Below are positions 28,621 through 59,341 of a stretch of 64,000 nucleotides of DNA, one piece after another (the first letter of the stretch is position 1; the number at the start of each line of letters is the position of its first letter). The notes beneath the pieces are model-generated. The model was not told the DNA's origin, did not search any database, and saw only the letters and a list, made by a program, of their open reading frames with translations. The stretch is from Syncephalastrum monosporum B8922 (Eukaryota > Mucoromycota > Mucoromycetes > Mucorales > Syncephalastraceae): positions 47,635-111,634 of the forward strand of contig JNEN01000810.1 in assembly GCA_000697355.1 (NCBI GenBank), in the 5' to 3' direction. The position numbers and the translations under genes are program-made.

Positions 28621-29703
28621 CTAGACTACGATTTCGTTCCGAAATCAGTTCTTGTGGACTATACTTCAATTTCCCTACACACCCAAGCGGCCAGCCGCGG
28701 CCGGAGTCGTCGAGAAGCGCCTATGACACGCTGGCCGCTGTCTCACCTGGGACTGTTTTCTAGTCACAACTTCAAACTCACACTCGACAGTTTCTTACCG
28801 GTGGAAGTGGCGCATTGCACACGTCCAGGAGGGGTCTTGTCGAGGGTGATCACAGCCATCGACCGCTTAGACTATAACGACGCAAAACGGGAAAAAGGAA
28901 GTGAGGGGCAACGGGGACGAAGAAGAGCAAAGGGAAAGCGAGGATGGAGCGGAACTGAGACATTTGTTAATGTCTCGCATTCAGTGTATAGACATAATCT
29001 GTTTCACTTACAGGCAGAGGAAAAAGCGAAAAAAAAAAAAAAAAGACCTCTAGTATGAGGGGATCAAGCGGAAAGAAGGCAGAGGCGCGACGGAGAAGAA
29101 GACAGGAGAAGAGGCGATCAAGAAGATTGCAAGCTAAGTATACATTCGGAAGGATGTTAGTGATGTCCAAGTCCACGTACTCTTGACGCGACAACTTACT
29201 TTCATGCACACCGGCGCAATTGGGGACGGGCAACCGGTGGCAGAGGGACTTGGGGGAAACGCAGTGGTCTATGTTGCGCTTGGTAGTTTATACTTGTGGC
29301 CATAATTCTTTGCATGTGTACTTGCCAGCGGAAGACTTGACCAGAGTAAAGAAAAATAGAAGAAAAGTAGACGTGGGAGAAAACATTCGTCTTTTATGAG
29401 ACACACATAGATGGACTTCCATGCTATTGCATAAACCGCGTCTAAAATGGGGAATAGAACGCGGGAAATAAAGACCTTGATGAAGATTGACATCAAAATT
29501 TTTCGCCTTTAAGAGGATCCATTGGCCTACTCTGCTTTACGCGTATCACGTTTATCGAAGAACACAAGAAGAAAGACCCTGATGAATATTGACGTCAGGT
29601 ACCGTTCACGTTTTAAAATGGTTTACTTTGCCAGCCAGACGCCCTAAGGGGAATTGGACTCGGGTCTCCAGTACTTGCTTACTCAGTTACAGGACAAACT
29701 TAA
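28621..29703 (-). mobile_element. Repeat copy A: Helitron-like element, 5' truncated
   Basis: Reading the minus strand, the 3' end is hairpin ATTTCG-GAA-CGAAAT, ten more bases and CTAG (28624-28621), followed by T outside, as in copies B-D. Intron donors are at the same places as in the other copies: ATG-AAA|GTAAGT with ATG at 29205-29203, acceptor TACTTAG, and a second GTAAGTGAAAC donor. One TGACGTCA remains (29590-29597). The tRNA-like segment at its 5' side lies near 29645-29675. The copy is more diverged than B-D, the reading frame meets a stop in exon 2, and its 5' end is cut by the pogo-like element starting at 29704. Confidence 0.75.
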
Positions 29704-30066
29704 CAGTGCCCGCTCGATAACTCGATACTCGATCAGCCCCTCCCAAACGATCGAGTTAGAATCAACCAATAAAAATCGTCGAAAGTTGGATATTAACATG
29801 CCAGACGATAAGATTTGAACAAACATCCTGCAGCAATCTTGTTATTGACGTATTAGATGATGAAGTCTCACGTGAGTGACATAATGCTCTTCTCTATTTT
29901 ATTGGACGAATGCGAACAAACGTCTTATATTTTGGGACCAACGGGCTGGTACTGCGCTTTGCCTCAAGCTGCTCTTTTTCCATTTGCATGCGGTTCCTCT
30001 CCTCCCTGATCATAGCCGAGATGGTGGATTGGCTTCCTTTGTTGTCAGCCCGAACCCTTCCCTAAC

Positions 30067-30077
30067 CCACTGCGCTA
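30067..30077 (-). promoter_or_regulatory. Polymerase III A-box-like motif (tRNA-like)
   Basis: TAGCGCAGTGG on the minus strand fits the A-box consensus and is embedded in a tRNA-like stretch (GTTAGCGCAGTGGGTTAG). No complete cloverleaf could be drawn and a correctly spaced B-box is missing, so it may be a SINE-like relic inside the pogo-like element. Confidence 0.3.
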
Positions 30078-30297
30078 ACTGGCGTTGACTGTGCGGAAGC
30101 GTCGTACTCTTATGCTTCCGCATACAGTCTAGCTAATTTTCTTCAGCTACTAAGCTGTTGCATTTGTGATCGAAAGCAAGCGTGGAAGATGGCAAAGATG
30201 TCTTTATCTGTAGCTGTGCTACGCATCACATGTATCTATATATAATAATCTTAATATTCCGTACATCCATAATTACTTACATAAGCAAGACGCAAAA

Positions 30298-30330
30298 GAC
30301 CCCGATTCAATTCCCGGGCAGGGCGTCTGC
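30298..30330 (+). repeat. tRNA-like segment with B-box motif in copy C
   Basis: GATTCAATTCCCGGGC here, and GGTTCAATTCC in copies B and D, match the polymerase III B-box and a T-arm. The 5' half of a tRNA (A-box, matching acceptor strand) is absent, so this is a fragment and not a tRNA gene. Confidence 0.5.
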
Positions 30331-30343
30331 CAAAGTAGACAAC

Positions 30344-30660
30344 TTTGAGACGTCAACGGTACCTGAAGTCAATCCTCATGAAGGTCTTTTTCCCTTTGTC
30401 CTTGGTAAAGGTGAGCCGCGTGATAGCAAAGCAGGCCAATGAATCCTCTGAAACGCGAAAGATACCTGACGTCAACACCTGTCAGCGTCCTTCTCTTTAC
30501 GCTCTTTTTCCCATTGGTAAAACGTGGATTGCGTGATAGCTTGCTTAGCCAATGGAACCTATGAAACTTGGAAAAATGCTCTACGTCAATCCCTGTCAGG
30601 TCCTTATCTTTTACTTCTCTTTTCCCATTGGCACAGCCCGCCCGAGTCCTTGCATGAATA
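30344..30660 (+). promoter_or_regulatory. Three tandem CRE/CCAAT units of copy C
   Basis: Three imperfect units of about 101-109 bp each contain GACGTCA-like cores, CCCATTGG (an inverted CCAAT box) or its equivalent, and GCCAATG near the unit border. One perfect TGACGTCA lies at 30467-30474. The array precedes the TATA-like site and first exon, so it looks like an upstream activating region. Confidence 0.55.
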
Positions 30661-30877
30661 CCGATTGACACGCGCTCTTTCTCATAAAAGGTCCTTTGTT
30701 TTCTCTCACGTCTACTTTTCTTCTTCTTCTTTACCCTGGTCAAGTCATCCTGCTGGCAAGTATATACGAAAGGATTCTGATTACAAGTATAAACTAATAA
30801 GAAGTGCAACATAGACCACTGCGTTTCCCCCAAGTCCCTCTGCCACCGGTTGCCCATCCCCAACTGCACCGGTGTGC

Positions 30878-31342
30878 ATGAACGTAAGTTGTCGCGTCAA
30901 GAGTACACGGTTCTTGGACCGCACTAACCTCCTTCTGAATGTATACTTAGCTTGCAGTCTTCTTGCTCGCCTCTCCTCCTGTCTTCTCTTCCGCTCGCGC
31001 CTCTTCCACCTCCTTTCCGCTTTTTCCTCTGCCCGTAAGTGAAACAGATTCAGGTCTATGCATTCAATATGAGACATTAACACTCGTTCCAGTTCCGCTC
31101 CTTTTTCGCTCCTCCTTTGCTCTTCTTCCTCTCCGCTTGCTCTCCCTCTCTCCTTTTTCCCGTTCGCGACCCACTAGCCGGCTATCGGTGGCCGGGACCA
31201 CCGTCAAGACTACCCCCAAAGACATGTGCCTTTGCGCCAAATGTCTGCCCCACGCCCATCGGTAAGTGCTTGTGGTTAATAATATGAAACTGAGACTCAA
31301 AAATGCAATCTGCTGCACAGTCCAGATGAGGTTATAGTGGTC
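30878..31342 (+). CDS. Hypothetical spliced reading frame in copy C
   Basis: From ATG 30878, exons 30878-30883, 30951-31034, 31093-31261 and 31321 onward join into 91 codons ending at TAG about 31336-31338. The start MNLAVFLLASPPVF is hydrophobic like a signal peptide; the rest is rich in Phe, Leu, Pro and Ser. Copy B gives 87 codons with the same splicing and keeps APNVCPT at the end although a stretch in between is read in another frame; copy D stops earlier, in exon 3. No family recognised. The unit may instead be noncoding, with the frame present by chance. Confidence 0.3.
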
Positions 31343-31580
31343 AACACGCCGTGAGCGTATATGACGACCCCGGTCCCGGTAGCTGGTATGTATAATAAGA
31401 ATGAAGTGTAGTCCACGAGAACTGATTTCGGAACGAAATTTCGTAGGCTAGTTATAGAGTAAACAGAATAAATATCAGTCGTCAGCCTTTGGTTGGAGAT
31501 TCATTTTCATAACTCGATCATTCGATAAGTCGGTCACCAAGGGCTGCAACGGTGGTGATCGAGTTATCGAGCGGGCACTG

Positions 31581-34500
31581 TATATATATATGCTGATGAC
31601 AATATGATCTTGACGATGTCTAGCATACACATCAATGCATATCAGGATCCGATTAATGAGCACGGTGGTAGAAAGGCTGTGTGCGCTTATGAACGAAGAG
31701 AAAGGAAGTAATGATATGCATTAATTGACGTGCTGACGAGGAGAACATTATGTTTCTCGCACATTGACAGACTTGTGCTAGCCATATCACATCTACCTCT
31801 TAGTGTAAATCTCCAAACACAGAATTTTAGTGCATATGTATGTATAGAATAACACGAGGAATGCAATATTAGGGCTCCACTTTATGTTATGCGCAAGTAT
31901 ACTCAGACCGTGGTAATTTAACCTGTGGCGGTGAGTGTAATATACGTGCAACCTCAACATTTTGTTACCATGCAGCCTTGCTAAAAGAAGGGTATTACGT
32001 CTACAATGGAATGCTACTCGATTATTATGGTACAATGCTGGTGCTCCTCTTCAAATGGGTAAGGTGCCCGGTCCAGCACTTTTTATAAAGGCTCAGCCAG
32101 AACACCTTTCTGTTGTTGTGCAAAATCAAGAGACTGTCATACATGCTTTAAGTGGCGGGCGGATAGGCCAATCTGAGCTACATGCTCTTCTCCATCATCA
32201 TATGAGTGCTCACAATTTGCCTACCGAAACCTTAAACATCTGAACTTTAAGTGTCCATGTTTTGCTGTCATCGGCAATAAGTATTCCAATTTCGAGGGAA
32301 TTATAATATACGGACAACAATCTAATTAGTGGCAATACGTGCGCGCATTATTATTGGCTGACGTAGCTCCTCGCCAAGCCTGCTCGTCTTTGGCACGTTT
32401 TGCGTAGAGGTATCCATATTCCTTGTCAACTCTGCAGGAGATAAAATCTGCAGTCGTCTGGATCACGAATATCTTGTAGAGTCTGCCCATACGAGACTTT
32501 CCATCATGTGATACGCAAACGGAAGAACTTTTACGGCGAAGAGCCTACAACTGGGTAGTCACCCTTTTGTATGTTACAAACTTCTGTGCATCATCAGTGT
32601 GCACAAATATGACGTCTGAACTCCTTTAAAACAGAGAATACGAGTAAACTTTGCTTGTAATACAAGGTGGCTTACACGAGACAAAGGTGGCACAAAAATA
32701 AAGGATGCGAAATACAATCCTGTGATGCTCATACGGTCATGTGCGCAGTTTGCTCAAAGAAAAGTGCATCTCAGGTAGCATAACTCGAATATCTACTCAT
32801 CTGCCAAAGTTTATATATAAGTCTTATTTATCTGACTTTTTAAACAAAACCAACACGGATGTGCTCGGTTAAAATCATGCAACTGCAGAAACAACTTGGT
32901 ATATTTATGCCGGGTAAAGAGTTGCTCAGCACTACTTTCTAGTATACTGGCAGGCATGATTTTGGAGCCACAACTGCTAAGAAGGATTACCAGTTGTTTC
33001 TGTACATGTGCATGAATATGATACATGGGTAGATACCAGTTATGCGCGGGTGTTCGACAGGTTGCCCAGTAAGTCAGTAGCCCCGCTGGTCTATACTTTG
33101 ACACACACCCTACTTTTTTATTTTGTAAGGTTTTCCGTTTTACTAAAAACATATGCTAAGAGGGGCAGCAATATCAGTTTCAGTCTACTCGTAGCTCTAA
33201 GCTAAGCATGGGTAAGCTCTTTCAATGAAGAGTATACACATGTGCGCGTAGAGCTTATATAATTCCTGATCAATTAGGGTAATGGGGATCGTAGCGGTTG
33301 AATGCTTTTCAGCTCAACCATGTAAGCACACGACAAACATGTAAAGTGTGCCATACTACCACTTCCCGATTTCTGTTTCATTCAGTTATATACACATAGG
33401 CTTGTAACGTGTATCAAGCGCATGAAAATATCAGCAATAGAATACTATTTTTGCTCGTGTTAAAGAGAGAATCAGCGCATTACTGCTGGACAGGTATGCG
33501 TGGTGGAGCACATAAACGTCCTTCAAGCTGCGAGTGCGACAATACGTATGTATACAAATAAACCATTTATGTAGCTTCACCAAACGGAGGTTTACTTCAT
33601 ATCATGTATCATCTTTCTCACGATAGTTATATACATAAGATTCTATTTAGAAAAACAAGCAGTATCTTCGCCTCAATTTGTGCCTTTCATGTGCGGAGTA
33701 ACGAGAAGTGTCCGATTAAAGGACATTCGATTACGCACATGTGTGCTATAGCTATTAGAGCTACATGTATTGGACGGGACAAAAAGGGCGGTCTGACAAG
33801 AGCCCTTCATATATCTAGCGCAGGCGCTTACCAAATTCTTCGTGTTAGCTTCTAAGATTCCCTGTGTGAGTAGATGCACGCGACAAATCACATCAGACAT
33901 TCTTCTAGACATACTGGCCAGAGTCGCTGCTGGCTTGGGATGCTGATTTCGTCTGTATAGACGGCAACAAAAAGTAAATCAGGTGGTAGAGTGGCGTATT
34001 CCGAGGATAGAGCAGTAGGCTGAAACAGTCCTCCTTGGATAGGTATCGAAAAATAAATCTGTGTAGCATTTTTCCGTGCTTATGTGTATACGCGCACGAA
34101 ATGCGGGGGTGTGCTGCACTTGTTTACGTCGCCGTGAACCTTATTGGTGGGAAGAGAGCACAAAGCAAGAACGAGCAGTGCTCACGCGCATGCTCGCTTC
34201 TCTGTCTGCATTAAACGTTTGCCCACGGATCTACGTGCCATGTGCCGGGGGCTGTATTCGCAATAAGGACTGCGTGGCCATGTGGCTGCCCACTCATCAT
34301 GTCGAGGGAATTTGCTTGGTTGCGAGGATTTATCGTTGCATGAGAACATCATTTCATTTTATGGTGCGTACTGAGATTACCAGTTTGACGAACGAGAGCA
34401 TTTCGAAGTGAGTATTTGCGTAGGTAGAAAATTCGAGCAAAAAGCAAGAAAACTGGTTGGCGGTCGGGTTTGGATAGTAAACCACATGGTAACCTTAATA

Positions 34501-36121
34501 AAGAGACATGCCAAAAAAACCAGAGTAACATCGTCATTTGGGAAACGGGAAGATCATCCTGCGAAAACCAGGTACTACAACAAAAGACAGGGTGCACGCA
34601 CGAGTGTGTGTCTGGTTTCGAGATCGGCCTGCATTCAATAAATTTACAGAGGCGTGCATAAATTACGCGGATGGTGTTTTCAAGATACCCACCCCTCCCC
34701 CTCCTCGGCTTCCCATAATATCAAGGAAGAAAGATATGATTCATTGCCGATAGTAAACTATTTGTCGAGAAAGGAATGAGTTAATGACCCCAAGTGGAAT
34801 TGCAAACATGTATATGTGTATATGTATTTATGACCTCGGATCGGGATCCCAATACGCACTGACACGAAGCGTATGCACGCGTGCGCACTTGCTCCTTCGC
34901 GCATGTTTCTTACCATCATCGACACTTTCGAGAATAGCAGTATTGCTGAGGAAGAAGTAGAGCGGTGTTCGGACGTAGCCGACGCAAGAAGTTGAAAGCT
35001 CACAGAAATAGTAAAAAGCGGTTCTCACAAAATTCGATGACTAGTGCGTGTGAGGCTAGCTCGAAAATTCGGCGGGTGAATAAAGAAAAAAGCGAAATAT
35101 TTTGTATTGGTAGACAAGGGCGGGAGGAGGAGCACAGGCCTCTAAGAAAGGGCAAAACATAAGGCGAGAGATCAGGGACAGCTACATAACTACGCACAAT
35201 GAGAGCGAGAAAGGGGAATCAGTTTGGAGAGCACCAGAAGGGTATGAGCCCGCGGGGATCGACCGTCTCCTGGAGTTTCGGTGGTTGCATGTGACACCGG
35301 CCTGTGTAGCACGGTGTCACGCCAAGTAAGTGACTAACACATTTTGGGAAGTATTGAACGCAGAGACAAAAACGTTGCAGAAGAGGAGACGATAAAAGCA
35401 GAGCGAGAAAATACAAGGAGGCGGGACCGCGGGGCTTAGAATAGCATGGTAGGTAGAATGATTGATTGAGATGAAAGGGGCGGGAAAGATAAAGTTCTAA
35501 AAAAGTAACATGTTTATATTCCAATAAAAAAGAAGAAAAGAGAAGAAGAATGAGAGCGGAACGACAAGATAAGAAAATAACAAACGTAGCAAGTAAGAAG
35601 GCAGAGAGTATGGAGGTGCTTATGGATGGATCGAGTAACAGTGGCAAAGGAGGGGAATGCTGTAATAGAGAGAGTATGCCGAGAACAATGGTAGGGCCCC
35701 TGCTTTGGGAAAGGATAAAAAGGTGAGGTATAAGTTCGCCACGTGGGGATGCTGGAAAGAATAAAGAAAGCGTGGTATATTATAGCCTAAGAGAGGGTAT
35801 GCATGTATGTAAAAGAAAAAAAAGAGAAAAAAGAAAGTACAGCGTGCACCCGCTCGTAACACCGCCTTTTTTTGGTACTAACCTCACTGGACAAAAGACC
35901 TCGCACGCTCCCCGTTGAGTGGAAAGGAAACGCCCATTTTTTTCTCTTTCGACTCCTTTCTTCTCTCTCTTGCTTGTCTCTATAACCTTTTTTGCTTTTC
36001 CTCCAACCCCTTGTTGACACTTTTCGTTGTAACCTCTCACCTCTTTAATCCCTCAGTCGTAACGATCTTATCTCCACTCTGCCCCTCATTTGGCGAGATC
36101 CCAAGACGACACACTTGCGCA
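31581..36121. other. Gene-poor region right of the repeat nest
   Basis: About 4.5 kb with no supportable gene. Frames at 31962-32243 (+) and 34076-34411 (+) look partly protein-like but have no motif, splice logic or conserved neighbour. A 9-bp stem inverted repeat (GTGACACCG/CGGTGTCAC) sits at about 35291-35316. From about 35000 to 35880 the plus strand is strongly purine-rich and from 35930 to 36115 pyrimidine-rich. The latter is the leader of the phosphodiesterase gene. Confidence 0.4.
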
Positions 36122-38993
36122 ATGGACCCCTCTCGCTGTTCCGTTGTCATATCTTATTACCCTGCCCCAAGACCTTTTACGATCGACGGCAATCACGACA
36201 ATGCAACAAACCCTAGCCCTGAATACTTGAATGACCTTCAACAAGTCTTTGGTCAAGGTATATTTTATTTTCTTTTCTTTGTATTTTCGTTTTCTTCCTT
36301 TTATCTTCGGCCGGTCCAGACCTACAGTACCATGACAACCACCGTAGATACTATACTTAATGAAGAACAACACATTCATGTTTCTAATCACACTACTCAT
36401 AGTTGTCTTACATACGAACGCAGCAGACGCTGTCGAAGAGACGAAACAACTGAGCAAACTCACGCCTACGCTTCTTCTCCTCGATCTCGATACCGCCACA
36501 CCCGATATGATCGCAGACAACGACGATTTGGACGACGACGATACCGTATATACCCCCTCCTGCTCTTCTTCCTGCTCAAGTGCCTCCTGGGCCACCCCAA
36601 CTAGTGCCCGCATTAGAAAGATATCCCGCGAGCTCGATGCTCCCGTCATTGGTACTATTATTGCTACTATGATTACCATATATAACCCGTTCTTTCTTCT
36701 CAACAACCCGCGCTTTCTTTTGTACAGCCTGTTCCTCCAACGACAATCCCTGCTTCATGCTCGACTGTGTTCACGCAGGTGCGGCAGATTACGTCGTGAA
36801 ACCTCTCCGTATGGATGTCATTAAGACGATGTTCCTGGTAAGTTTACCCGCCTATCTCTTTTTTTTTCCTCTGTGATGCACCCTGCATAACCACATCTTT
36901 GCTCTAGAAATTGCACCGATGCCGACCCGATTTGAAAATGCACGACGCAGCTCACGGATCGTCCTCTTCTGACAATGTCCTCTCTACAGTCTCCACTCTC
37001 TGCCCTGAGGACGACGACATGCACCAGCGCATCAAAGATATCTTCAATAGAGATGTTCGGTAATTTGTTTTTTTCCATGTTTTTGTTGTATCAGGTCGTA
37101 TCTCGAGAAAATTTTCAACGCTGACGAGGTTTCTTTTTTTCTTAGATTCACTAAATCCGTCATGGACATCTACGCTAATCCTGTCGTTGTTCCGCCCCGT
37201 CCAAAATATCGGGGATTGCCTTCGTATGTAACTTAAAAAAGCGCGGGCCACCCCCATTCGTCTTCTACATCCAACTCTCACACATATGCTCATTTTCTTT
37301 TAAATAGAGAACGTGCTGTAATCCTCAAGCACAAGGTCTCCTCCTGGGACTTTAGCCCCTTTGACCTGAGCCACGATGACCTCATTCACTGCACCTGCAT
37401 GATTTTTGAGCAAGTCCTCTTGTTGCCTGAGCTTGCCTACATGTCCATCTCTCAAGGTAAGCGCTTTCTTGTTTTGCTTCGCCCCTGTGTCACGACCCTC
37501 CCACAATTAACATTGCGTAACGCATCCAGACCAATTGTACGACTTCATCACTGATCTTTCAAACGCCTACCTGGACGCGAATCCCTATCACAACTTTGCT
37601 CATGCTGTCGACGTTTTGCAATGCCTGTACTACTTTTTGTGTCAGCTCAATCTCCTTCCTCTCATTGACCGTGCCAGTCACACCACGCAGCCTAAAGTAC
37701 ACCCGAAACCTCAAGATTTGCTACGACCCAATGACATATTTGCGTTGCTGATCGCAGCCATCGGTCACGACGCAGGCCACCCTGGTGTAAACAATCTCTT
37801 TCTCGTAAGCATTTGCCCAGAACGCTTTTGTTGAAATTTTTTTGTCACGCGACAAATCCGAAAGATGGCGTGCAGCAGACTCATTTAATCCTCCCTTTAT
37901 TTCAGATCAATTCGGCTGCTCCCTTGGCTCTCCTTTATAACGACCGCTCTGTCCTTGAAAGCTTCCATTCTATGACACTTTTTCATATAATCAAGAAGCA
38001 TGGCCTTGATCAGATAGGCGGTGGCCCGGGTTCACCGGGCTATCAAGGTATGTTAGGATACCGCAAACCAAATTTATCAGTCTCTCTTACTGACTATGCC
38101 TGCCAGCCTTCCGCAAAACTGTTGTTACCAGCATACTTGCGACTGATATGTCGCTGCACGCCGATTATGTCAAGCAGATCAATTCTCATGCATTTCGGAT
38201 ATCGGGATCAGAAAATGACAATGAGAATGGCCGTCTTTTGCTCTGTAGTGCGCTGATCAAGTGTGCAGACATTAGCAATGTGGTACGTTGCGCACCTTTT
38301 GACATAGACATGTTCTTTGTACTGATAGCAGTATGTTAGACACGTCCCTTCCTGCGTGCTGCCAAGTGGGCTGAGCTCCTCGTACAGGAGTCTGTCTGTC
38401 AAGGCGACCTGGAACGTACACTCGGTCTACCCAGTCTGCCTTTAAACGATCGCGAGAAGGTGGTTTTGGAAGACTCCCAAATCGGTTTCATTCGTTTCGT
38501 GGCTCTCGAATTGTTTGAAAATGTGCGCGAGATTCTACCTGGTACGTGAATGAAGTTACTATGTCGTCCGTATTCTGAACAAGCGAAATTAGAACTGTCC
38601 TTTACCGTCGATTGCATCCGCGAGAATCTGATCCGATGGGAAAACCGGAAAAATGCAACGCACGATTCAGGTGTCGCCAGTTTGGGTGAAGACGAGGAGG
38701 AAGAGGAGGAAGAACTCGAAGTGAAAGAGGAAATCACGGTTGAAGCAGGCAGCAAACGTCGAAGCAACAGTCTCGATTACCATGCGCAAGCAGTAGAAGT
38801 GCTGAGGAAACGGCTATCTCTCGACACAAGCCATAAAGAGGATGGAGGCGAATTTACCAAATTACCCAGCATGCCTACCGTTGCTCTGCAAAGTTACGAT
38901 GGACATCATGCTCACCGTCACCACGCTGAACATCACGAGTACGCCGGCCCAGACGGACCAAGTCCTGTCTACTGCCAATGCACGATCCAGTGA
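36122..38993 (+). CDS. cAMP phosphodiesterase with N-terminal receiver-like domain
   Basis: Class I cyclic-nucleotide phosphodiesterase (HD-type) that lowers cAMP. Start ATG 36122. Intron 1 (36257-36408) gives FGQVVLHTNAADAVEETKQL, then LLLLDLDTATPDM with the phospho-acceptor Asp position. Intron 2 gives PVIACSSNDNPC and AGAADYVVKPLR: the Ser and Lys positions of a response-regulator receiver. The usual N-terminal acidic pair is absent (VVISYYPAP instead), so it may be a degenerate receiver. The catalytic part has HNFAHAVDVLQ, GHDAGHPGVNN and LIKCADISN metal-binding motifs. The tail is acidic, then His-rich. About 10 introns. Dictyostelium RegA and animal PDE8 share the receiver-plus-PDE order; I infer a similar control point. 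Confidence 0.9.
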
Positions 38994-39500
38994 AGGAACA
39001 TAACACCCTCCTTCAACTTACTGCATTGTGACGTACCCGACCCGAACCACGCCAAACTTACAGGATATACTTTCGCACATCACACACGTACATCCGCAAA
39101 CACACTCTCACACATACGCACAACTCCCACCACGAAGCATTACACATTGATCCCTTTTCTCCCTGCTGCATTCATCATTTCATATCCCCTTGTACTTCTT
39201 TTACTCATCCATCATTGTACAAATTCCCCTACCTGTCATATGTACAAGTATTGGCTCCTTCCCCCCAATGCACGCGTTCTTGTTTGTATAGAAGAAAAAT
39301 AGATTTACGCTTACAAGAAAATACAATTTGGGTGGGCGAAAAGCAAACGAAAAGCGATGGAAAGAGATCATAGAGAGCATAGTAAAAGAAAGGAAGGGTA
39401 AGCAATCATACATCGTGGGGCATATGCACAGAAAGGAAAACGCTGAAGGCTCCTGAGAGAAAAAAATAAGGGACGAAAGCAAAGTAGTAAGGAAAGCAAA

Positions 39501-42500: not shown

Positions 42501-42941
42501 CATAAAGTCGAACCCGATCGGCTGAGGATGATGGGACCCTGACGTGAGCAGCGTATTGTCTGTGTTTGATGATGATGAAGAGGCAGAGCCCAAGAGGCCG
42601 CTGTCTAGTCCTGAAGGTACGCCAGTGCCTTCCTGCCCTGCTCTTGCCCCACCAACACTTCCTCCTCTTTCTGTGGCTGCTGCCGCTGGACCATTGGTCC
42701 GACTCTCGAAAGAATTTTGAGGATCCAGAAACGAGCTTAGCTCTGACCATTCGGCTTTATACACGGGCCAACTCAGCCCACTCGTATCCGTAGTTGTTGC
42801 TGTATTTGCAGCGGTAAAGCCAGCAGCCGCAGTACTGACATTAAGCTCTTGCGCGTGCGGGTCTTGTTTTCGTTTTCGACTGGTGGGTGGCGTTTGTGTA
42901 GAAAAGCCAATGGGCTCACCTCGGTCGGAAGGGTCAGCCAT
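39501..42941 (-). CDS. CSL-family transcription factor (Su(H)/RBPJ/Cbf11-like)
   Basis: DNA-binding factor of the CBF1/Su(H)/LAG-1 family, which binds GTGGGAA-like sites; fungal members act without Notch. ATG 42941 starts MADPSDRGEPIGFSTQTPPT; a long disordered Gln/His/Ser-rich region follows (to about 41930). The Rel-like N-domain begins at VAQKSYGTEKR and RFLCPPPTAILIG, followed by GRCVSKNLFINDADEKRKRV. The beta-trefoil carries VSLFNRIRSQTVSTKYLGV. The C-terminal TIG domain ends with GRELLLCRIPDSPE and NHIYQYLY (stop TAG 39503-39501). One intron of about 51 nt near 39838-39888 is a multiple of three without a stop; removing it restores WTIVGTDCANYKFW, the family pattern. Convergent with the phosphodiesterase gene, about 500 bp apart. 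Confidence 0.9.
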
Positions 42942-45900
42942 AATGAAAAGAAAGAACAAGAAAGGACAAAAACTGCAAAAGTGCGGGGAAGTTACCCGCT
43001 GTGCCTTGTTGCGTGAGTGCGCAATTCGCGCTTGCGGGTGTTCAAAGAGGTGACGACCTTCCCCGCTTGAACCCAATTCAGGTCTGTGTTGCATCACAGA
43101 TCGCCCTTTTCCTTCTGTTGTTGACTGCCACAGAAAGAAGTTTCCCGCCTTTTACCGTGAATTTGATGCGCGTATACGGCGTGGTAGCTGTGTGTTTGCC
43201 TGTGAACTGACTTTCTCTTTTTCTTTTTATTTTCCTGGCCGAAATAAATCGTCTTACAAAAGCAAAAAGTTTTTGGTAGCTGTATTGCTGTTAGATCACA
43301 CCCGTAAATAGGGATTCAGATATAGTCAAAGCTCAGAAGTGGGGACAGTTTATAACTTGACTTGTTGCACAGTCGCACATACATATGCGTCGTGGGCGTT
43401 GAAACACCATCACCCAAGCACGGTCATGATTTTTTTTATTTCTGTCGGCCCTGATGCCCAAAAATACACGACCGCCTGGCTCAGATACACCAATCATCAT
43501 ACTATGGACCGATGAAAGGTGATCACCCTGCCGAGTGATTAGCCGTCATAATGTCTCATAAGGAATGGTATATCTTCCAACGAGCTCGTGACCCAAACAG
43601 AAATACTCGACAACCATCATCGGAAACTTTGTTGCCCGCGCCCAGCCAATACGCCTTTGCAGAAACTCCAGATGTCGCTCGCTCGACTTGCTCATTGTAT
43701 GCCTTCATTGTGGATCTCGCGTGCACTAAATGGAGTACAAACAGCTACCCGTTATTTTTTGGATTCGGCTTGCTTTCTTCCCTTTATGTTTCTCCTCTTT
43801 TACAGATCAATAACGCAAAACTGGTCTGGTTAGTAAGATGAAGCTCCGTATCACATGCAGCAAACCCATTTGTTGCCACTTGGCGCTCCAAGTCCCACAT
43901 TCACACACTCGTGCAATCCATTCCACGTCACTCCATATATGCCGATACTCCTGTATAAGCATCGTCAGGGCGGTGTATAGAACGGTAACTGACAGGTTAC
44001 CATAACGCTATGCGAGTTTCATCAGGCGACAGCGTTTGGCAACAGAAGACGTGCATCACCACTTTACCTGAAGTCTTCCGATGCCATGGACGGTGCGTCG
44101 TAAATAAATGAACAGGTGATGTTTCTCCCTGGGGCTTTCCTTAAAAACCTCTTTGAAAAAATGCTCTCTTTTGTGATGACGGCATATGGACATTACCAGA
44201 CCAGAGCCTTCATATGTCATTGGCCAATATCAAATTTTGCTTTCATATTGATAAGCATTGCATGAGGAGTCGTCCAGGGTTTGTTCGACCCTGTAAATTC
44301 TCATGACCTTTGTGCCATGTATGCAATATGGCCGTAAGACAGCCTGGGCCGAGTAATATTCAGCGCTAAAAGTGCTCTATTTGCCGATTTCCACGCGCAT
44401 CTTGCTTTGGATATCAACCTTTGCTCGAAACAACTATCTTGCTCCACGACGGCTTTCATAGCTGAGCACTCGAAATACCTTTCACAGTGAGATTAAGATT
44501 GTTTTCTCGAACATCATGTGACAATGGTAGGGTGAGACATTACCACATTACCTAGCAAAAGCAATGACCAATAGGAAAGTGGTTTTTGCTGATTGCTCCA
44601 TGCATAAGATGTCTCGTGATTTATACGTGGCGGACATGTAAGAAAAAGGCTCAAATACTGCCCGACAAACGACAGAAACAGAGCAGCTGCTGTCGCGATG
44701 CCCACGCGGTCGCAAGTCCGCAAAGCCCCCAAGTACATCATCTTCCACTCTGGTATAATCAGCTACTCACTATAGAGTGTCCTACGTCTATCAGGTACGT
44801 AGTAGCTCTTGCACTAATGAATCATCCGTTGCATATGTGCACACTGTACTTCTCGACTGTAACACATTAATGTGATCTCATCCTGCAACGCCGCACTGTC
44901 AAAAGTGTACCCGGTAACCGAATGTCACTGCATTCTCGGCTATGAGTGATCCGGCATCTCTAGACTATATAGCCACCTGATATTATAATGATCTGATTGC
45001 ATATCAGAATTTAGGACTTAACACGCGCACCTTGGCTACTTTGTCTATTACTTGAAATGTTTATCATTCGCTTGGCAGCAGAGAGAAAATCCACTATCCA
45101 GTTAACTTAAACTAGCCTATCGAGATTCATTCTAAAGTCAGTTGGTAGTTCGACTGAAGTGCACTTTCTACATACCTACGGCAGAGCCGGGTTCGTTATT
45201 GATCGCGCAAGCCGGCGGGCCGCCGTCTCATCTAACTAACATGCCCGTGGAGGGCACGCGTATAATTCCTTTTGTCAAACCCATGTCTTAGGATATCTTC
45301 ATATAATTCGAATCACTTACCATGATGGGTGGGGCTGAAAGACATTTGGTTATATGCCTGTAATAAAAGGTTTAAACTACTACCGGCTTCTACCATAGGC
45401 TAGGGCGGAGAAGGAGGACAAAGGAGGGGGGACAAGGGATGTAGGACAAAGCAAGGAGGACAAAAGGAACGGAAAGGAAAAGGAGCGGACCTGACATCAA
45501 ATATGTTAACATGTTTCAGTTTCTTATTTAGTGCAGCTCACTTACATACAGAGGGAAAAAAACAGGAAAAAAATCTATGGGCGGGAGGGTGCGAGCGGAA
45601 GAAAGGAAGAGAGACACAAACGGGAGAGAAGACGGGAGGAGAAGAAAAGGTAATACGACAAGCTACGTATACGCTATGTTAACGATGTCCAATGTATTAT
45701 ATTTTTAACGCGACGACTTACTATCATGCACACCGGTGCATGGACAAGCAATCGGTGGCCGAAGGACTTGAGGGGAAGGAGAGTGCAAAATAACCAGGGT
45801 TCTGAATACCGTAGGTAGCACCAAACCAGACCCAGTGTGGTACCATGATTTCTTTGAGAAGTTGTCGTTGCGTTCCGTCGTTATACAACAGAAATGCCTG

Positions 45901-46970
45901 CCTTTGAAACACTATGAGTATCGTAGGTAATGCTCAAACGCATCATCACTAATTTAGTCCAGCCTTGTTACGCTACTCCTACACAGGCATGCACGCATAT
46001 AAAACTCTTGTCGGTAAAGTGTAGTGGACAATAAAAGCTTGTTGAACAAGATAGACCTTTTGAGTGAAGTTTGCGACAGTAATTAAATTCTTTTTTTCCG
46101 CCTACCTCTCGATGCCGATATGTGGCAAAGGAGTCATAAAAAGCTAGTATCATATAGCCTCTATCCAATATCTGATTTGATGGTCAAAAACCCCACACAT
46201 GAATGCAAGGTTCTGTAAAAGTACATACTAACCAAAGTGAGGTTTTTCTCTACAAAATCGCCCATTGGATGACACTAACCAATTAGACGTCGTGCTACCT
46301 TGGCGCAGTACTGTTTTTTTTTTCTTTTTTGAGTTCTCTCCTCTCCCATATCATCTTCGCGGGGTTTGCTGTACTTACGGATTGTTGCTTGCTATAAAAT
46401 GACAGCAGTACGATTTAACTTTCTTTTCTTTATTTGAGCAGCCCGGTCGAGGTGGTCCATGCGTGCGACAAAAAGGGTAATCTACCCACGATAGTAACCA
46501 CTGTTTATACAGTTTCTCGTTTATGGTGAAAAGAAAGAGACAGAGAATGAAGAAAAGAAAAAGGGCGCCATACAAGGCGCAGATCACGCGTCCGAAAAGG
46601 TACGGATACAGAAAAATTGCTCTCGGATGATGTAACACCGTGTGAGGAAGCGTAGGAGAAAGGGTAAGGTCGTGTACCCATAATAGATCCAAGGCTCACC
46701 ATAAGAGGAGGATATGCACCAGAATAGCTGAAAACAGCACGGGTGCATGACACACGGAAAATCGACCTGGCCTTCTTTTTTGGGATGGCTCCATTTATTC
46801 ATATTTTCCTCATCCTTATAAAATGAACCCATGGTGCTGTGCTGGACAAAAGGACTTTTATTTTTTCTCTTTTCTTTGTCGTTACTTTTCGCAGCCTTTT
46901 TCTACAGCGCCCAAATCGCATTTGCTACTGTCCGACATAACACAAATCTGCGTGAACTAAATTTGTGGAC
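42942..46970. other. Gene-poor region between CSL factor and sugar porter
   Basis: No gene can be supported over 4 kb apart from the repeat relic at 45400-45780. Short frames at 43551-43841 (+) and 46375-46753 (-) have no motif. Ahead of the sugar porter there is a T-rich stretch (46856-46900) consistent with its promoter. Confidence 0.4.
45400..45780 (-). mobile_element. Decayed repeat copy E (central part only)
   Basis: Aligns by eye with copies B and D over exons 1-3 on the minus strand. Kept are ATG-ATA|GTAAGTCG (ATG at 45727-45725, donor at 45721), a second donor GTAAGTGAGC at 45545 and an acceptor TGTCAG at 45492-45491 before GTCCGCTCC, which gives a 55-nt intron matching intron 2 elsewhere. 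Most exon sequence has diverged, and neither Helitron-like end is recognisable. Confidence 0.5.
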
Positions 46971-48998
46971 ATGTATAATATAGCGAAGAGCGTGCACGGC
47001 AGCAAACTGGTGTTCGCCATCAATAGTGCTGCTGGTCTCAGTATCTTTTTCTTTGGAGTAAGTTTCTCGATCTATACAGAAAAAAGTCTTATATACCATG
47101 TATTACAGTACGACCAAGGTGTCATGAGTGGTGTGAACATCTCGCCAGATTACAAGAATATCATGGGCCTTAACGACAACGAAGCGCTCCTTGGTGGCGT
47201 TGTGGCACTTTATTACGTTGGCACTTTGGTTGGTGCTCTCTTAGGTGGCTGGATTGGTGACAAGATTGGACGTATCAAGACGGTTGTCGTTGGGTGTATG
47301 TTTGCCGTTTTCGGTGCCGCTCTCCAAACAGGCGCTCAAAACGTTGCCTGGATGATTTGTGCTCGTATCATTACGGGTGTTGGAACAGGTCACCTGTAAG
47401 CTGTAAGACAGCTATGCTATCACGCATCACTCATAGAACATGTACCTAGGAATGCCATCGTGCCTGTCTGGAGCGCAGAGACATCACATTATGCTTCAAG
47501 AGGCATGTTCATAGCTATGGAATTTACTCTCAACATTTTTGGTGTTGTTATTGCTGTAAGTCAAAAAAAAAAAAAAAAAAAAAGGAAAAAAACTGGAGCA
47601 TTGTTACTCAAGCTACCATCGACGTTTTATAGTACTGGATTGCCTATGGCCTGAGCGATGTTGAAGGTGGTATGCGTTGGCGATTCCCTATTGGTTTCCA
47701 GCTCATACCATTGGTTGTTCTTTTGGTGGGTATCAATATCTTCCCCGAGTCACCTCGTTGGCTGCTCAAGAAAGGCCGTGAGGAAGAAGCCATGTTCATT
47801 TTGGCGGCCCTTCGTGGTGAGGGTGACTTGAACCATCCAGATGTCATTCGTGAACGTGATGAGATCATGGAAACCCTCAAGATCGAGGAAGCTGAAGGTG
47901 GTGAGCCCAGCTACTGGGCCATGTTGTTCAAGTACGATGAGTTCAATATCCCAAGACGCGTCCATTTGTCCATTTGGCTGCAAATCATTCAGGAGCTTAC
48001 TGGTATTGGCGTTGTACGTAAAAAGAAATGGACCAACTCTGTACATTGCTAGTGCGCTCACAGCCGCATTTTTTTTTTACAGATTACCGTCTATGCACCT
48101 GAGTGCTTCTCCAGTGCAGGCTTTTCAGAGAAAGTCGCTCAGCTGCTGTCTGGTATCAATGATATCTGCTATATGCTGTCGACTTTGGTTGCTGTGTTTA
48201 CCCTTGACCGTTGGGGCCGCCGCTTCACACTTTTCTATGGCGCTGTATTTCAAGGCATCTCGCTGATATTGGTAGCAGTGCTGACCAAACCAGATATTAT
48301 GGAACAAAACAAACTTGTAAGTCTTCACTGCTGAGTATTTTGTATCGGGTGACAAATAATGCCGAGAGCTCACATGACTGTTCTTCTGCAACAGGGATAC
48401 GGCATTGGTGCTACTGTCTTTATTTTCTCATACACTGCATTCTTTGGTATGACCTGGTTGACCGTACCCTGGCTGTACCCCGTCGAAATATACCCCCTTC
48501 GTGTTCGAGCTCGTGGCGGTGCTTGGAGTGTCGTTGGATGGTCCATCGGTAATGCTCTGGTCACCGAAATAACGGTATGTCTATCACAGCAATGTATGTC
48601 ATAACTGCATTGGCATACTCACTCACCCCTTCCACTTGCTTTAACAGCCACCTATGCTTGCTGGTATTGGTTGGGCAACTTTCTTGCTCTTTGGTGCCCT
48701 GAATTTCGTCGCAATTCCTTTTGTCTGGGCTTTATATCCTGAAACGATGAACAAAACGCTTGAGGAACTAGATGTCATCTTTTCCACGCGGTCACTCTTG
48801 GTCTGGAATGCTGAGAAGGAGCTCCGTGATAAAGGCATCGATCCCAACGATCCACTGCGTAACATTGAAGACGTAACGGGCATTCATATTAGCAAGGCGC
48901 ATGCAACAAGTGGCGACGAAGAGAAACGGGCAGAGAAGCATGAAACCGATGAAGCTGCAACGTCCGTGAAGCAAAAGATCGAGACAAAACATGAGTAA
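46971..48998 (+). CDS. MFS sugar porter (hexose/quinate-type)
   Basis: Twelve-helix plasma-membrane sugar transporter. ATG 46971 (MYNIAKSVHGSK); the first intron rebuilds GYDQGVMSG, the helix-1 signature. Sugar-porter motifs in order: GGWIGDKIGRIKT (loop 2-3), PESPRWLLKKGR after helix 6, LDRWGRR (loop 8-9), PVEIYPLRVRARGGAW (helix 10-11) and PETMNKTLEELDVIF after helix 12, then a charged Lys/Glu tail ending KTKHE-like at stop 48996-48998. About six introns, including one with an A-tract (47562-47583). Substrate cannot be read from the sequence; the family spans hexoses, quinate and lactose. Repeat copy B begins 81 bp after the stop. Confidence 0.93.
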
Positions 48999-49078
48999 TG
49001 CTAATTAACATGGAGTGATTGTATTCCCTATCGTATAGTCTTGTACCTATATTATCTATATTTTATGTGTATGCTAAA

Positions 49079-50449
49079 CTAGCCTACGAAATTTCGTTCC
49101 AAAATCAGTTTTCGTGGACTACACTTCATTTTTATTATACATACCAGCTACCGGGACCGGGGTCGTCATACACGCTCACGGCGTGTTGGCCACTAGTACC
49201 TCATCTAGACTGTGCAGCAGATTGCATTTTTGAGTCTCAGTTTCATATTATCAACCAAAAGCACTTACCGATGAGCGTGGGGCAGACATTTGGCGCTAGG
49301 CACATGTCTTTGGGGGGGGTAGTCTTGACGGTGGTCCCGGCCACCGATAGCCGGCTAGTGGGTCGCAAGCGGGAAAGAAGAAAGGCAGAGGAGGCGGAGA
49401 GGAAGAGACGCAAAGGGGACGCGAGAAAGGAGCGGAACTGAAACGTGCGTTAATGTCTCATATTCATTGCATAGACCTGAATCTGTTTCACTTACGGGCA
49501 GAGGAAAAAGCGGAAAGGAGGTGGAAGAGGCGCGAGCGGAAGAGAAGACAGGAGGAGAGGCGAGCAAGAAGACTGCAAGCTAAGTATACATTCAGAAGGA
49601 GGTTAGTGCGGTCCAAGAACCGTGTACTCTTGACGCGACAACTTACGTTCATGCACACCGGTGCAGTTGGGGATGGGCAACCGGTGGCAGAGGGACTTGG
49701 GGGAAACGCAGTGGTCTATGTTGCACTTCTTATTAGTTTATACTTGTAATCAGAATCCTTTCGTATATACTTGCCAGCAGGATGACTTGACCAGGGTAAA
49801 GAAGAAGAAGAAAAGTAGATGTGAGAGAAAACAAAGGACCTTTTATGAGAAAGAGCGCGTGTCAATCGGTATTCATGCAAGGACTCGGGCGGGCTGTGCC
49901 AATGGGAAAAGAGAAGTAAAAGATAAGGACCTGACAGGGATTGACGTAGAGCTTTTTCCCAAGTTTCATAGGTTCCATTGGCTAAAAAGCTATCACGCAA
50001 TCCACGTTTTACCAATGGGGAAAAAGAGCTCAAAGATATGGTCCCTGACAGGTATTGACGTCAGGTATCTTTCGCGTTTCAGAGGATTCATTGGCCTGCT
50101 TTGCTATCACGCGGCTCACCTTTACCAAGGACAAAGGGAAAAAGACCTTCATGAGGATTGACGTCAGGTACCGTTGACGTCTCAAAGTTGTCTACTTTGG
50201 CAGACGCCCTGCCCGGGAATTGAACCGGGGTCTTTTGTGTCTTGCTTATGTAATTATGGATGTACGGAATATCAAGATTATTATATACAAGCGGTGGGAC
50301 TCGCTTCGCTTCGTCCAAGAGTGACACTCCGATTGCGTTCCGGATGTGAGTGAGCCCCTTCGCCTGCGGCTTCGGGTCATCACAGCCTCCACTTAATCTT
50401 CGGTCACTCTAGTCCGCTCCCACCGCTTGTCAAGATTATTATATATAGG
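49079..50449 (-). mobile_element. Repeat copy B: Helitron-like element with nested insertion
   Basis: Minus-strand copy, about 1213 bp without its insertion. 3' end CTAG at 49082-49079 with A at 49078 (T on the element strand), 5' end A|CC at 50449 (C and D begin TC). ATG at 49652-49650, intron 1 49646-49580, exon 3 49437-49269 (169 nt, the same length as in copy C). TGACGTCA at 50056-50063 and 50159-50166. Poly(A)-like AATAAA lies near 49130 on the minus strand. It starts 81 bp after the sugar-porter stop, so it may provide or alter that gene's 3' region. Confidence 0.78.
50272..50445. mobile_element. 142-bp inverted-repeat element with 16-bp target duplication
   Basis: Element 50288-50429 with 12-bp terminal inverted repeats CAAGCGGTGGGA. 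It is flanked by perfect direct repeats TCAAGATTATTATATA at 50272-50287 and 50430-50445. Copies C and D keep the site uninterrupted, proving insertion into copy B. The interior is G/C-rich with CTTCGCTTCG-like units and no reading frame. A TIR element with such a long duplication fits no common superfamily that I can name. Confidence 0.85.
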
Positions 50450-51443
50450 TATCGCTGTTCCAAGCAAAATATTTCGAAAGAGCTGTCAGACCATAGAAAA
50501 CACTCTTAGACATACAAGCTGAAGAAAGATCGAGCCTTCGGATTGAGGAAAAATGTACACACCTCCATTCGTCCATCTGCTCGAACGAGATTCAAGGTCG
50601 TGCAAGAATTGACAATTTAAATTCAACTACGATTTCAAGGTGCTCATATGTTAGTGTTCGACAAGTTGCAACGAAGCATGTATTAGTCGAGGCCGAATTT
50701 CGGAGTAAAATTGTTGATGCATGCAGTCCTCAAGCGTCCATGGTAAAGCCAAGAACCTATTAGTCAGTCGAACGGCCGCAGAGACGCGATATGGAGATCA
50801 ACATAATGTACTCCCATGACTCTGTTCTTCGTAAATACTATATCGCTGCTGTATTGCACGTACAGTACAAAGGTCCATACGGCCAAAAGTGAACCGCACA
50901 TGCAATCTGCTCCCTGAGTGTGTGAAACAAGCCAGCAATTCGAAAGGTGGCAATGTTCCGGTATCGGGTAAGTGGACAAAGTATACACAAAGTGAGGTCA
51001 CTGCACGGATACATACCAGTCGGCTAGTCCGTCCTACGTCTCAATGGATACTGCACAGACAGATATACCCATGCTGCCTTTTGGTGGGTGAATAGTCTCA
51101 TATCGAGATACCTCAAGCGGATGCGCAATAGTATGTCAGACAAAGCCAAGCTCACGATGTGCATCCTGGTCAATATGTGCCCCGAATGCCGTACATACCT
51201 CCACCTTGGTGGCATGGCTGCCTAGTAGGCGCTTCCGATGGAAGTGCGTGCAGTTACTGAGAAGAAATCTACGTGCTTTATTATATCCGCTTCTGCAAAT
51301 TGAAGTCGGAGACCAGCAGTAGTGGCTCTACAGAAAGAAAAAATAAGGAAGAGGAAGACCGGGCCAAAAAATGCCTACGGAAAAGCGAATTATTGCAAAC
51401 TCCTCAAATGGGGAATCGCGCACCTCGTCCATATATGACTTTA
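50450..51443. other. Spacer between copies B and D
   Basis: About 1 kb between the 5' ends of the two facing repeat copies. No supportable gene and no similarity that I can see to the corresponding A-C spacer (29704-30234). Confidence 0.4.
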
Positions 51444-52661
51444 TCTATATATAATAATCTTGATATTCCGTACATCCATAATTACATAAGCAAGACACAA
51501 AAGACCCCGGTTCAATTCCCGGGCAGGGCGTCTGCCAAAGTAGACAACTTTGAGACGTCAACGGTACCTGACGTCAATCCTCATGAAGGTCTTTTTCCCT
51601 TTGTCCTTGGTAAAGGTGAGCCGCGTGATAGCAAAGCAGGCCAATGAATCCTCTGAAACGCGAAAGATACCTGACGTCAATACCTGTCAGGGACCATATC
51701 TTTGAGCTCTTTTTCCCCATTGGTAAAACGTGGATTGCGTGATAGCTTTTTAGCCAATGGAACCTATGAAACTTGGGAAAATGCTCTACGTCAATCCCTG
51801 TCAGGTCCTTATCTTTTACTTCTCTTTTCCCATTGGCACAGCCCGCCCGAGTCCTTGCATGAATACCGATTGACACGCGCTCTTTCTCATAAAGGTCTTT
51901 TGTTTTCTCTCACGTCTACTTTTCTTCTTCTTCTTCTTTACCCTGGTCAAGTCTTACGCTGGCAAGTATATACGAAAGGATTTTGGTTACAGGTATAAAC
52001 TAATAAGAAGTGCAACATAGACCACTGCATCCCCATAAGTCCCTCTGCCACCGGTTGCCCGCCCCCAACCGCACCGGTGTGCATGAAAGTAAGTTCTCGC
52101 GTCAAGAGTACATGGTCTTGGACAACACTAACCTCCTTCTGAATGTATACTTAGCTTGCCGTCTTCTTGCTCGCCTCTCCTCCTGTCTTCTCTTCCGCTC
52201 GCGCCTCTTCCACCTCCTTTCCGCTTGCTCTCCTCCCATCAGAGGTTTTTTTTCCGCTTTTTCCTCTGCCCGTAAGTGAAACAGATTCAGGTCTATGCAA
52301 TGAATATGAGACATTAACGCACGTTTCAGTTCCGCTCCTTTCTCGCGTCCCCTTTGCGTCTCTTCCTCTCCGCCTCCTCTGCCTTTCTTCTTTCCCGCTT
52401 GCGACCCACTAGCCGGCGATGGTGGCCACCGTTGAAAACACCTTTATAGACATCGCCCTAGCGCCAAATGTCTGCTCCCCGCCCACCGGTAAGTGTTTTG
52501 CAACTGGGTAATGCGCCACTGTGACTCAAACGTGTATTCAGCTCAGGTGAGGCGGCGGCCGCGCGCCGTGAGCGCGCATCAACGACCCCACGCCGGTATG
52601 TATAATAAAAATGAAGGATAGTCCACGAGAACTGATTTCGGAACGAAATTTCGTAGGCTAG
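51444..52661 (+). mobile_element. Repeat copy D: Helitron-like element with spliced unit
   Basis: 1218 bp, 5' A|TC at 51444 and 3' hairpin plus CTAG at 52658-52661, followed by T. TGACGTCA at 51569-51576 and 51672-51679; tandem CCAAT/CRE units 51549-51860. ATG 52083-52085 at the end of exon 1, introns 52089-52154, 52272-52329 and 52489-52546, AATAAA at 52604-52609. Exon 2 has 33 extra bases (11 codons, in frame) shared in diverged form with copy A; B and C lack them. The spliced frame stops in exon 3. Confidence 0.78.
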
Positions 52662-53576
52662 TTAAGATAAAAGCACCGATGCTGCATTTCAGATTTCCAC
52701 AATCCAGGACATTTATACTTTTTACAGCCATAGTAGTATATACCTTTCCTCTACCCTCTCGTCTGTGTTACTTTGATAAACTTTGCTGCTGCCTCTGGCA
52801 AGAGCAAATCTGGTTGAGTGCGGAGCTGAAGTGGCCTGCGCTAAAAGGGTGCAATCACTAAGAACGACGGCGCAATGTTATTTCCAACGGGCGATATGCT
52901 TAGCAAACTGGGACTACTTGTGGCTGTGGAAGAAATGAATACATACGCGATGATGGCTTGTTTTGGGCCACATGCCACAATCTTCTACGTGACAATAGCT
53001 GCTCTGATGGCTCCCAATTACGCATCCACTATCGCGTAAATACGGCGTTGTTACGTGGCGGCGTTTCCCTCTTACTTAGTATGATCATGGTGCTCGCGTG
53101 GTACGACACCCAAAAAGTACAGGCAAAGATATATGCTTTAAGCGTGTTCTCGCCATTCTGCGGATACAGTAGTCATCCTTTCGCAGCTTTTGAGGCTTGA
53201 AAAAACTTGCTTGGGCAATGCAACCTGGTGATGTGTTACCAAACGTGGGTACTTCTATTCCAAAAAGCGCATGCATGATATCTTAATAATTCTGGACGAC
53301 ATACGAAAGCAGGGCAGTGGGAGCCTCGCCGCCCCATAACTCGAAATTACTTTTGGTGAGGTAAGGCTGACCTTCCGAATATGATTGAGCAAGAGTCAAC
53401 ATGACACCCGGCCAGCTCAAATCATAAACCAAAAATAAGACAACATACATGCCTACAATCACAAAGCAAAAGCATTCTGTGGGAGGAAGAGAGGCAAAGG
53501 CTTTTCTCGGGCCGTCTCCTGTGAGGTATATAGATACTATCTGACAAACTTATTTTATGTATAAGACTATACATCT
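52662..53576. other. Intergenic region between copy D and the UDS1 gene
   Basis: No gene or repeat can be supported. Small frames (60-80 codons) carry no motif. Confidence 0.4.
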
Positions 53577-58990: not shown

Positions 58991-59341
58991 TGTCGGAATC
59001 CTTTTGGCTGTTAAGTACAAGGCCAGGTGGATATGGAGATCAAAAGAGTAGAGGGTGGATAAGATGATGTTTTATTCTTGTCACTTCTCGCGTATTTATA
59101 ATCTTCTGATGTCTTGGCAATTGCCTGCGAGAAGGGGATAAATATATAAAAGGGAAGTTGGGCTATGACAATAATCGTCGTAGCCAAGAGGTCGGAGAGA
59201 GGAGGGAGAGGTGTACCGGTGCAGTGTCCGTAAAAGGACAGATACTTCTTGGAAGGCCTGTCCAAAAGGGGATCCATGGCCGTGCGCGGCATTTCCTGTC
59301 AACGGGCTCAAAATAGAATGGAGGGAGTTAAACACCCGACA
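58991..59341 (-). repeat. 3' LTR of the Ty3/gypsy element
   Basis: 351 bp, 6-bp inverted ends TGTCGG/CCGACA. Contains a CTTTTATATA TATA-like motif on the minus strand next to a partly conserved hairpin (59161-59184). Includes the pol stop codon (59330-59328). Confidence 0.88.

Follow-up and report, generated by a model that had tools for sequence, protein, structure and literature searches.

A 64,000-nucleotide stretch of the genome of the fungus Syncephalastrum monosporum B8922 (contig JNEN01000810.1, positions 47,635 to 111,634 of the forward strand; hereafter the window) holds several copies of a repeat that combines the termini of a Helitron transposon with an interior resembling a spliced transcription unit. 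The question raised by this locus is where such a unit comes from: is it a cellular gene duplicated from promoter to poly(A) signal by a mobile element, as an earlier note on this sequence had proposed, or a part of the transposon? The window is part of one contig (C63) of the genome that was searched, which comprises 27.5 Mb in 198 contigs. Judging from the sequence comparisons described below, we consider it likely that the four copies A to D are non-autonomous canonical (Helitron1-type) Helitrons carrying an ancient, selfish, spliced and probably non-coding unit that has been kept by two families of elements. The unit probably belongs to the Helitron lineage itself and is probably no recently captured gene.

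Copies of the element in the window

The four copies listed in the earlier note are real, and all are canonical non-autonomous Helitrons; an older fifth copy, E, on the minus strand had been overlooked. The copies are arranged as follows:

Copy A, 28621 to about 29690, minus strand: 5' end lost and limit approximate; ends CTAG^T; hairpin exact
Copy B, 30235..31451, plus strand: full length, TC...CTAG, between A and T; has empty-site relatives
Copy E, 45112..45776, minus strand: older fifth copy, member of a second family; three GTAAGT kept; no hairpin
Copy C, 49079..50449, minus strand: 5' CC; an insertion splits the 5' region
Copy D, 51444..52661, plus strand: full length, TC...CTAG, between A and T

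Compared with the D consensus, copy A shows 76-87% identity across pieces (blastn, three main pieces) and copy E 70% identity over 255 aligned columns.

The putative transcription unit and its predicted splice sites

The unit fills the 3' two-thirds of the element and consists of repeats with cyclic AMP response element (CRE) and CCAAT motifs, a TATA-like site and four predicted introns. In copy D, where the positions of the predicted introns were read directly from the sequence, the following features were located:

51569..51840, plus strand: degenerate internal repeats with TGACGTCA (at 51569 and 51672) and CCAAT/ATTGG boxes, given by motif positions; self-similarity about 72-76%
51888..51895, plus strand: TATA-like site CATAAAGG (family form CATAAAAGG)
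51962..52020, plus strand: predicted intron 0 of the GC-AG type (GCAAGT...CTAAT...CATAG), 59 nt; donor conserved between D and E
52089..52154, plus strand: predicted intron 1 (GTAAGT...CTAAC...TTAG), 66 nt
52272..52329, plus strand: predicted intron 2 (GTAAGT...TTAAC...TCAG), 58 nt
52489..52541, plus strand: predicted intron 3 (GTAAGT...CAG), 53 nt; donor conserved, body not
52596..52601, plus strand: donor-like GTATGT, conserved in both families
52635..52661, plus strand: 3' hairpin ATTTCG-GAA-CGAAAT with the terminal CTAG

Introns 1 to 3 are the three short introns described previously, and the GC-AG intron that lies upstream of them had been missed. The motif TGACGTCA occurs six times in the window, always within copies A to D, and the hexamer CATAAA is intact in 95% of the aligned D copies. 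No acceptor partner of the donor-like GTATGT was recognised within the element.

The genome search with copy D gave 43 matches (40 scored of 259 candidates), and the search with copy E gave 44 (40 scored of 132 candidates). Copy E thereby led to a second family, family E, which carries the same unit at about 65% identity to the D family. Thirteen further E copies were fetched; the E alignment contains 12, the window copy counted, and leaves out L084 and L085, which have no terminal CTAG. The 40-copy alignment of the D search leaves out four partial copies (L004, L006, L026p1380 and L063), one that is too short (L003), and L007, the copy on C20, which was mistaken for a duplicate and is also absent from the joined-flank set and the two-ended end and flank counts. 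Its 40 rows hold window copy E and L067, and counts over 39 omit E.

The splice donors look maintained in these alignments. Donors 0 to 3 are intact in 95, 100, 95 and 90% of the 39 D-family copies; CpG-free hexamers average 71%, and the four donors stand at percentiles 0.90, 1.00, 0.90 and 0.73. The older E-family copies keep the donors in 73, 67, 83 and 83% of cases, against a mean of 59%. The two consensus sequences agree at 466 of 716 aligned sites, and all four donor hexamers are identical between them, whereas in the intron bodies 94 of 177 sites agree (22/44, 38/56, 20/33 and 14/44). Perfectly conserved hexamers number 106 among the 704 aligned, which puts the conservation of four donors by chance at about 5e-4.

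The 3' part of the unit gives a different picture. The sequence GGTATGTA is present in the last 100 bases of 37/39 D-family copies and 11/12 E copies. AATAAA, which the earlier note had included among the features of the family, occurs in the last 85 bases of 17 of the 39 aligned D-family copies and, within the window, in copies C and D only; neither AATAAA nor ATTAAA was found in the last 100 bases of any of the 12 E-family copies. It is thus not a family feature.

Coding capacity

Many young copies of the D family keep open frames through the predicted splices. Across copies these frames are broken by the length of exon 2 in 11/40 cases and by that of exon 3 in 16/40, and at the site of the D-family ATG the 10 readable E copies have ACG (eight), ACC (one) and ATG (one, the window copy). 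Pfam gave no match for one D-type translation, and an antisense frame of 166 residues annotated in B and C is not general among copies. A protein-coding unit common to the copies, sense or antisense, was rejected on the ground that its frames are not conserved across them; a peptide of the D family alone is weighed below. Rfam families were likewise absent, both from the window at gathering score and from 51400-52700 at E <= 1.

Because the donors were kept while the intron bodies, the frame, AATAAA and the cross-family ATG changed, we infer an RNA polymerase II (Pol II) transcript that is spliced and probably makes no protein; its end would not be fixed by a poly(A) signal. From the proposed whole gene, promoter to poly(A), there remain the promoter-like repeats, the TATA-like site, four introns and donors that look maintained; the AATAAA, found in under half of the copies, and a conserved open frame have to be given up.

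Element ends and insertion sites

Copies A, B and D carry the hairpin ATTTCGGAACGAAAT unaltered, and copy C differs from it at one position. The genome contains 90 exact occurrences of this hairpin, versus 0 of the reversed control pattern. With up to three mismatches allowed, the 28-bp 3' end (hairpin and CTAGT) has 124 matches in the genome, 100 of them listed, and its reversed control 0; at the same tolerance a 27-bp core of the 5' end gives 52 matches, some of them in other elements, C72 and C34 among them. The 6-bp stem folds with an energy z of -1.56, which 14 of 200 shuffled 42-base ends match or better, so that the fold is not exceptional at the 5% level; support for the stem therefore comes from its conservation in many copies, not from its energy. 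The D family thus has the Helitron ends ascribed to it earlier (5' TC, 3' hairpin and CTAG), and the E family is without the hairpin.

Both ends were found in 26 of the 43 copies that have the 3' end; the other 17 have neither of the 5' forms sought. Among the two-ended copies, 25 start with TC and one with CC, A precedes the start in 25/26, and T follows CTAG in 26/26. Because the expressions used for the ends prescribe a TC or CC start and a CTAG end, independent information comes from the flanking A and T only. More widely, TA precedes the element in 23/26 and TTA follows it in 23/26. Homology between copies ends at the TC start, and the flanks beyond it differ.

To look for empty sites, the two flanks of each of 24 copies were joined and compared with the genome; of 60 candidates, 40 were scored. 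Copy B sits in repeated sequence, and eight places match across its joint, five of which were fetched. Four of these five empty relatives read CACATGTA^T(T/C)ATAGAG and have the same length as the joined flanks, giving the site ATGTA^T(T/C)ATAGAG and no duplication; the fifth lacks one T, not three bases. As the empty-site relatives match the joined flanks, copy B entered between A and T without duplication. This, together with the flanking A and T of the two-ended copies, upholds the insertion between A and T without target duplication that had been read from the window. For the other 23 copies, no empty site appeared among the candidates scored. When 29 copies genome-wide were checked for duplicated flanks, the absence of duplication seen at B had one exception: L032 (C68:158924-160130), which has a truncated 5' end, carries the 11-bp repeat TTAGTGATATA at both flanks. 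The next longest flank word shared is 6 bp.

A separate observation concerns the third flank base, which is family-specific: the triplet after the element is TTT in 11/12 E copies and TTA in 39/43 D copies.

Rep-helicase relatives and a possible link to the unit

The earlier note had predicted that an autonomous relative must exist elsewhere. A search of the genome with the Helitron_like_N profile gave seven matches on five contigs, the best of them on C72, where a Rep frame of 1095 residues and a helicase frame of 488 residues were found (Helitron_like_N, E = 4.9e-57; PIF1, 5.2e-65; Helraiser, 7lcc, E = 1.1e-161). The helicase frame differs from the Rep frame past a run of nine T, and the same run is present in C189. 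Upstream of Rep, 49 bp (C72:4583-4631) match the 5' terminus of the family at 96%. The prediction is thereby borne out as far as a Rep-helicase with the same 5' end is concerned; the 3' end of the C72 element is taken up below. Among the best 120 of 1696 relatives of the Rep-helicase, those from Circinella and Mucor are the closest with a named fungus, at 42-44% identity, and the two best overall have 49-50%.

The sequence downstream of the C72 helicase led to C189 (79% over the first 160 bases), whose helicase is 93% and 89% identical to that of C72 over two main pieces. In C189 an E-type unit of 76% identity, extending from intron 0 to intron 3, adjoins the 3' flank of the degraded helicase with no base between them; the helicase part and the unit part are both truncated. 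Around the other Rep matches (8-10 kb, on C82, C191, C66 and C65), the E consensus found no unit at E <= 0.05.

The unit looks old and part of the Helitron lineage because it is shared with a second family, adjoins a helicase and has no conserved frame. For the same reasons, namely its age, its occurrence in family E and its place beside the helicase at C189, the unit is probably not a recently duplicated cellular gene. A Rep-helicase lineage of the C72 type would move A to D in trans by rolling-circle replication, with a nick at TC and a stop at the 3' hairpin. Spliced Pol II transcription would run outward through the 3' end of the element, where the conserved terminal GTATGT could join the transcript to flanking DNA, and the most likely role of such transcription would be to help the element stay expressed and mobile.

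Alternative explanations

Several results weigh against an ancient non-coding unit of the Helitron lineage. The first two donors of the E family (0.73 and 0.67, versus 0.59) are near the average, at percentiles 0.65 and 0.60, and the comparison of D with E is a single alignment in which intron 3 aligned poorly. Besides having no 3' hairpin, E has a 5' end that was not found. On C72, no unit was recognisable with the E consensus (E <= 0.05), and pattern and local-alignment searches for the 3' end of the element gave nothing above shuffled controls. At C189, two truncated elements could have become fused at a later time. Finally, in the D alignment an ATG precedes intron 1 in 39/40 copies, and the length of exon 2 is divisible by three in 29/40.

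The last two counts, along with the frame open in many young copies, are what would be expected if the unit of the D family encoded a small secreted-like protein (MILAVFLLASPPVFSSARA...). We regard this as very unlikely: stops are rare in pyrimidine-rich DNA anyway, most E copies have ACG for ATG, and the frame breaks, the lack of a Pfam family and the restricted antisense frame described above argue in the same direction. Ordinary gene capture, in which a Helitron acquired a host promoter with the first exons of its gene and then multiplied them, as the earlier note held, is a possible explanation, if a doubtful one. The promoter-like repeats, the TATA-like site and the introns fit it, and HelibatN3 with NUBPL is a documented precedent (PMC4778049). 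However, the capture would have to be ancient, since the unit is present in the diverged E family and against the helicase; its frame is not conserved across copies; and no host copy was seen among the candidates scored in either search (40 of 259 and 40 of 132). Slightly more doubtful is a reading of the unit as an exon trap: a promoter with leader exons, whose last donor, GTATGT, would splice into downstream host DNA and yield chimeric transcripts. The contrast between the terminal GGTATGTA, nearly constant in both families, and the inconstant AATAAA would suit such a device, which has been shown experimentally for HelibatN3 (PMC4778049). Yet the longest downstream frames have no orientation bias (18/35 sense, a weak test), and transposase binding could be what conserves GTATGT, which falls within 70 nt of the element's end.

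That the splice-like motifs are neutral, having survived by luck in a repeat with no transcript, appears unlikely. Many donors are indeed lost in individual E copies, and the C189 unit has lost all three donors inside its aligned part, but at the level of the consensus four of four donors are identical at about 65% overall identity. An element other than a Helitron, namely a transposon with a TA target duplication (TA|TC...CTAGT|TA), is barely credible. It would account for the prevailing TA before and TTA after the two-ended copies, but four of the five empty relatives of B show no duplication and the fifth is one T shorter, and the only related transposase found is the Rep-helicase.

A further idea, which we hold to be highly improbable, is that the unit, with its outward promoter, may be a circle sensor: the joining of the ends in a circle would complete an intron that the linear element does not have, and a spliced transcript, possibly of the Rep-helicase, would be switched on only while the transposition intermediate exists. 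Some bacterial insertion sequences form a promoter at the circle junction in a comparable way. The GTATGT donor lies about 65 nt before the element end and would be brought up to the 5' end wherever elements are joined head to tail, as a circle or a tandem; an acceptor-like TTAAC/CTAAC...TAAGCAG is found within about 80 bp of the 5' end in the C72 element and in the second type of 5' end. Against this, D copies of the main type read TAAGCAAG at the place of the acceptor, and C34 is without AG there.

Relation to known Helitrons

The elements resemble Helitron1 (Helraiser/Helibat) in the 5' TC, the 3' hairpin with CTAG, the insertion between A and T and the related Rep-helicase (1.1e-161 to Helraiser), and Helraiser likewise prefers an AT-rich target on the 3' side (PMC4778049). 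They differ from Helitron1 in a very fixed flank (TA^TTA), a conserved multi-intron interior, alternative 5' ends and a sister family that lacks the 3' hairpin. The bat element HelibatN3, which carries the NUBPL promoter together with a splice donor and acts as an exon trap in cells (PMC4778049), is by analogy the closest functional model for the unit of the D and E families. Both are non-autonomous Helitrons with a promoter and splice donor, here promoter-like and predicted; HelibatN3, however, has one captured first exon from a known host gene, whereas here four introns are predicted, no coding exon is conserved and two old families share the unit (PMC4778049). No host source for its promoter or donor was found among the scored candidates of the two genome searches.

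Helitrons of maize contain captured, alternatively spliced genes and show read-through into flanking exons (PMC4528327). Spliced transcripts from Helitron bodies are a common point, here only predicted; the maize elements carry captured gene fragments, in contrast to the old unit common to two families (PMC4528327). FoHeli of Fusarium, which is Helitron2-like, is also fungal and includes elements with multiple 5' termini, but it has asymmetric terminal inverted repeats and a 3' ATTTT or CTCCTGT in place of the canonical Helitron1 ends seen here (PMC5148889). Among the Helitron papers that the literature searches listed, judged by title and the opening of the abstract, none describes a family in which a non-coding spliced unit is conserved. 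Should transcription and splicing of the unit be real, a Helitron would have kept its own intron-bearing, probably non-coding unit through the divergence of families, and splicing itself would serve the transposon. One fungal genome of 27.5 Mb holds more than 100 3' ends, together with empty sites, a sister family and a relative with a Rep-helicase, so that ordinary RNA data could test the question directly.

Variant 5' ends and other features

Two 5' ends occur on the same body: the main one, TCTATATATAATAATCTT..., and a second one, TCTATATAATAAAAAAAAAGAGTGCGCC..., which is carried by L021, L026, L028, L030, L031 and L034 and whose 40-base core has 10 matches in the genome. L033 and L036 have a common upstream part, which by eye resembles the upstream part of E copies. 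In C34 the main 5' end is joined to a different interior, and in L027 and L032 the first about 20 bases are missing. Around position 1736 of L056, two D-type copies stand head to tail, the second 5' region beginning about 10-20 bases past the first CTAG. A stretch resembling a T-arm or B box, GGTTCRAATCCCG, occurs in roughly the first 90 bp of D and of L066 (C34), and at L047:5091-5170, in each case near the 5' end; the interiors of these elements differ. A tRNA origin of this stretch was considered and rejected: ARAGORN detects no tRNA gene anywhere in the window, and shuffled sequences fold as well as the single strand (z = -0.1).

The insertion in copy C was read directly from the sequence:

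50288..50429, no strand assigned: nested insertion of 142 bp with inverted ends CAAGCGGTGGGA / TCCCACCGCTTG and a 16-bp direct repeat TCAAGATTATTATATA

The direct repeat TCAAGATTATTATATA around it is unusually long. Relatives of this insertion adjoin Helitron-like 5' ends in L028 and in C72 near 15090. Copy B is enclosed by a repeated element (29703-31582) with the inverted bounds CAGTGCCCGCTCGATAACTCGAT / ATCGAGTTATCGAGCGGGCACTG, the left end of which touches the broken 5' end of copy A.

Elsewhere, the window contains genes in keeping with a fungal genome, such as a fused shikimate-pathway frame, which we take to be AROM-like, and, on the minus strand at 59328-63892, two long frames that by their motifs presumably represent pol and gag of a long terminal repeat (LTR) retrotransposon. 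An identical 85-bp repeat is present at 58991 and 63916.

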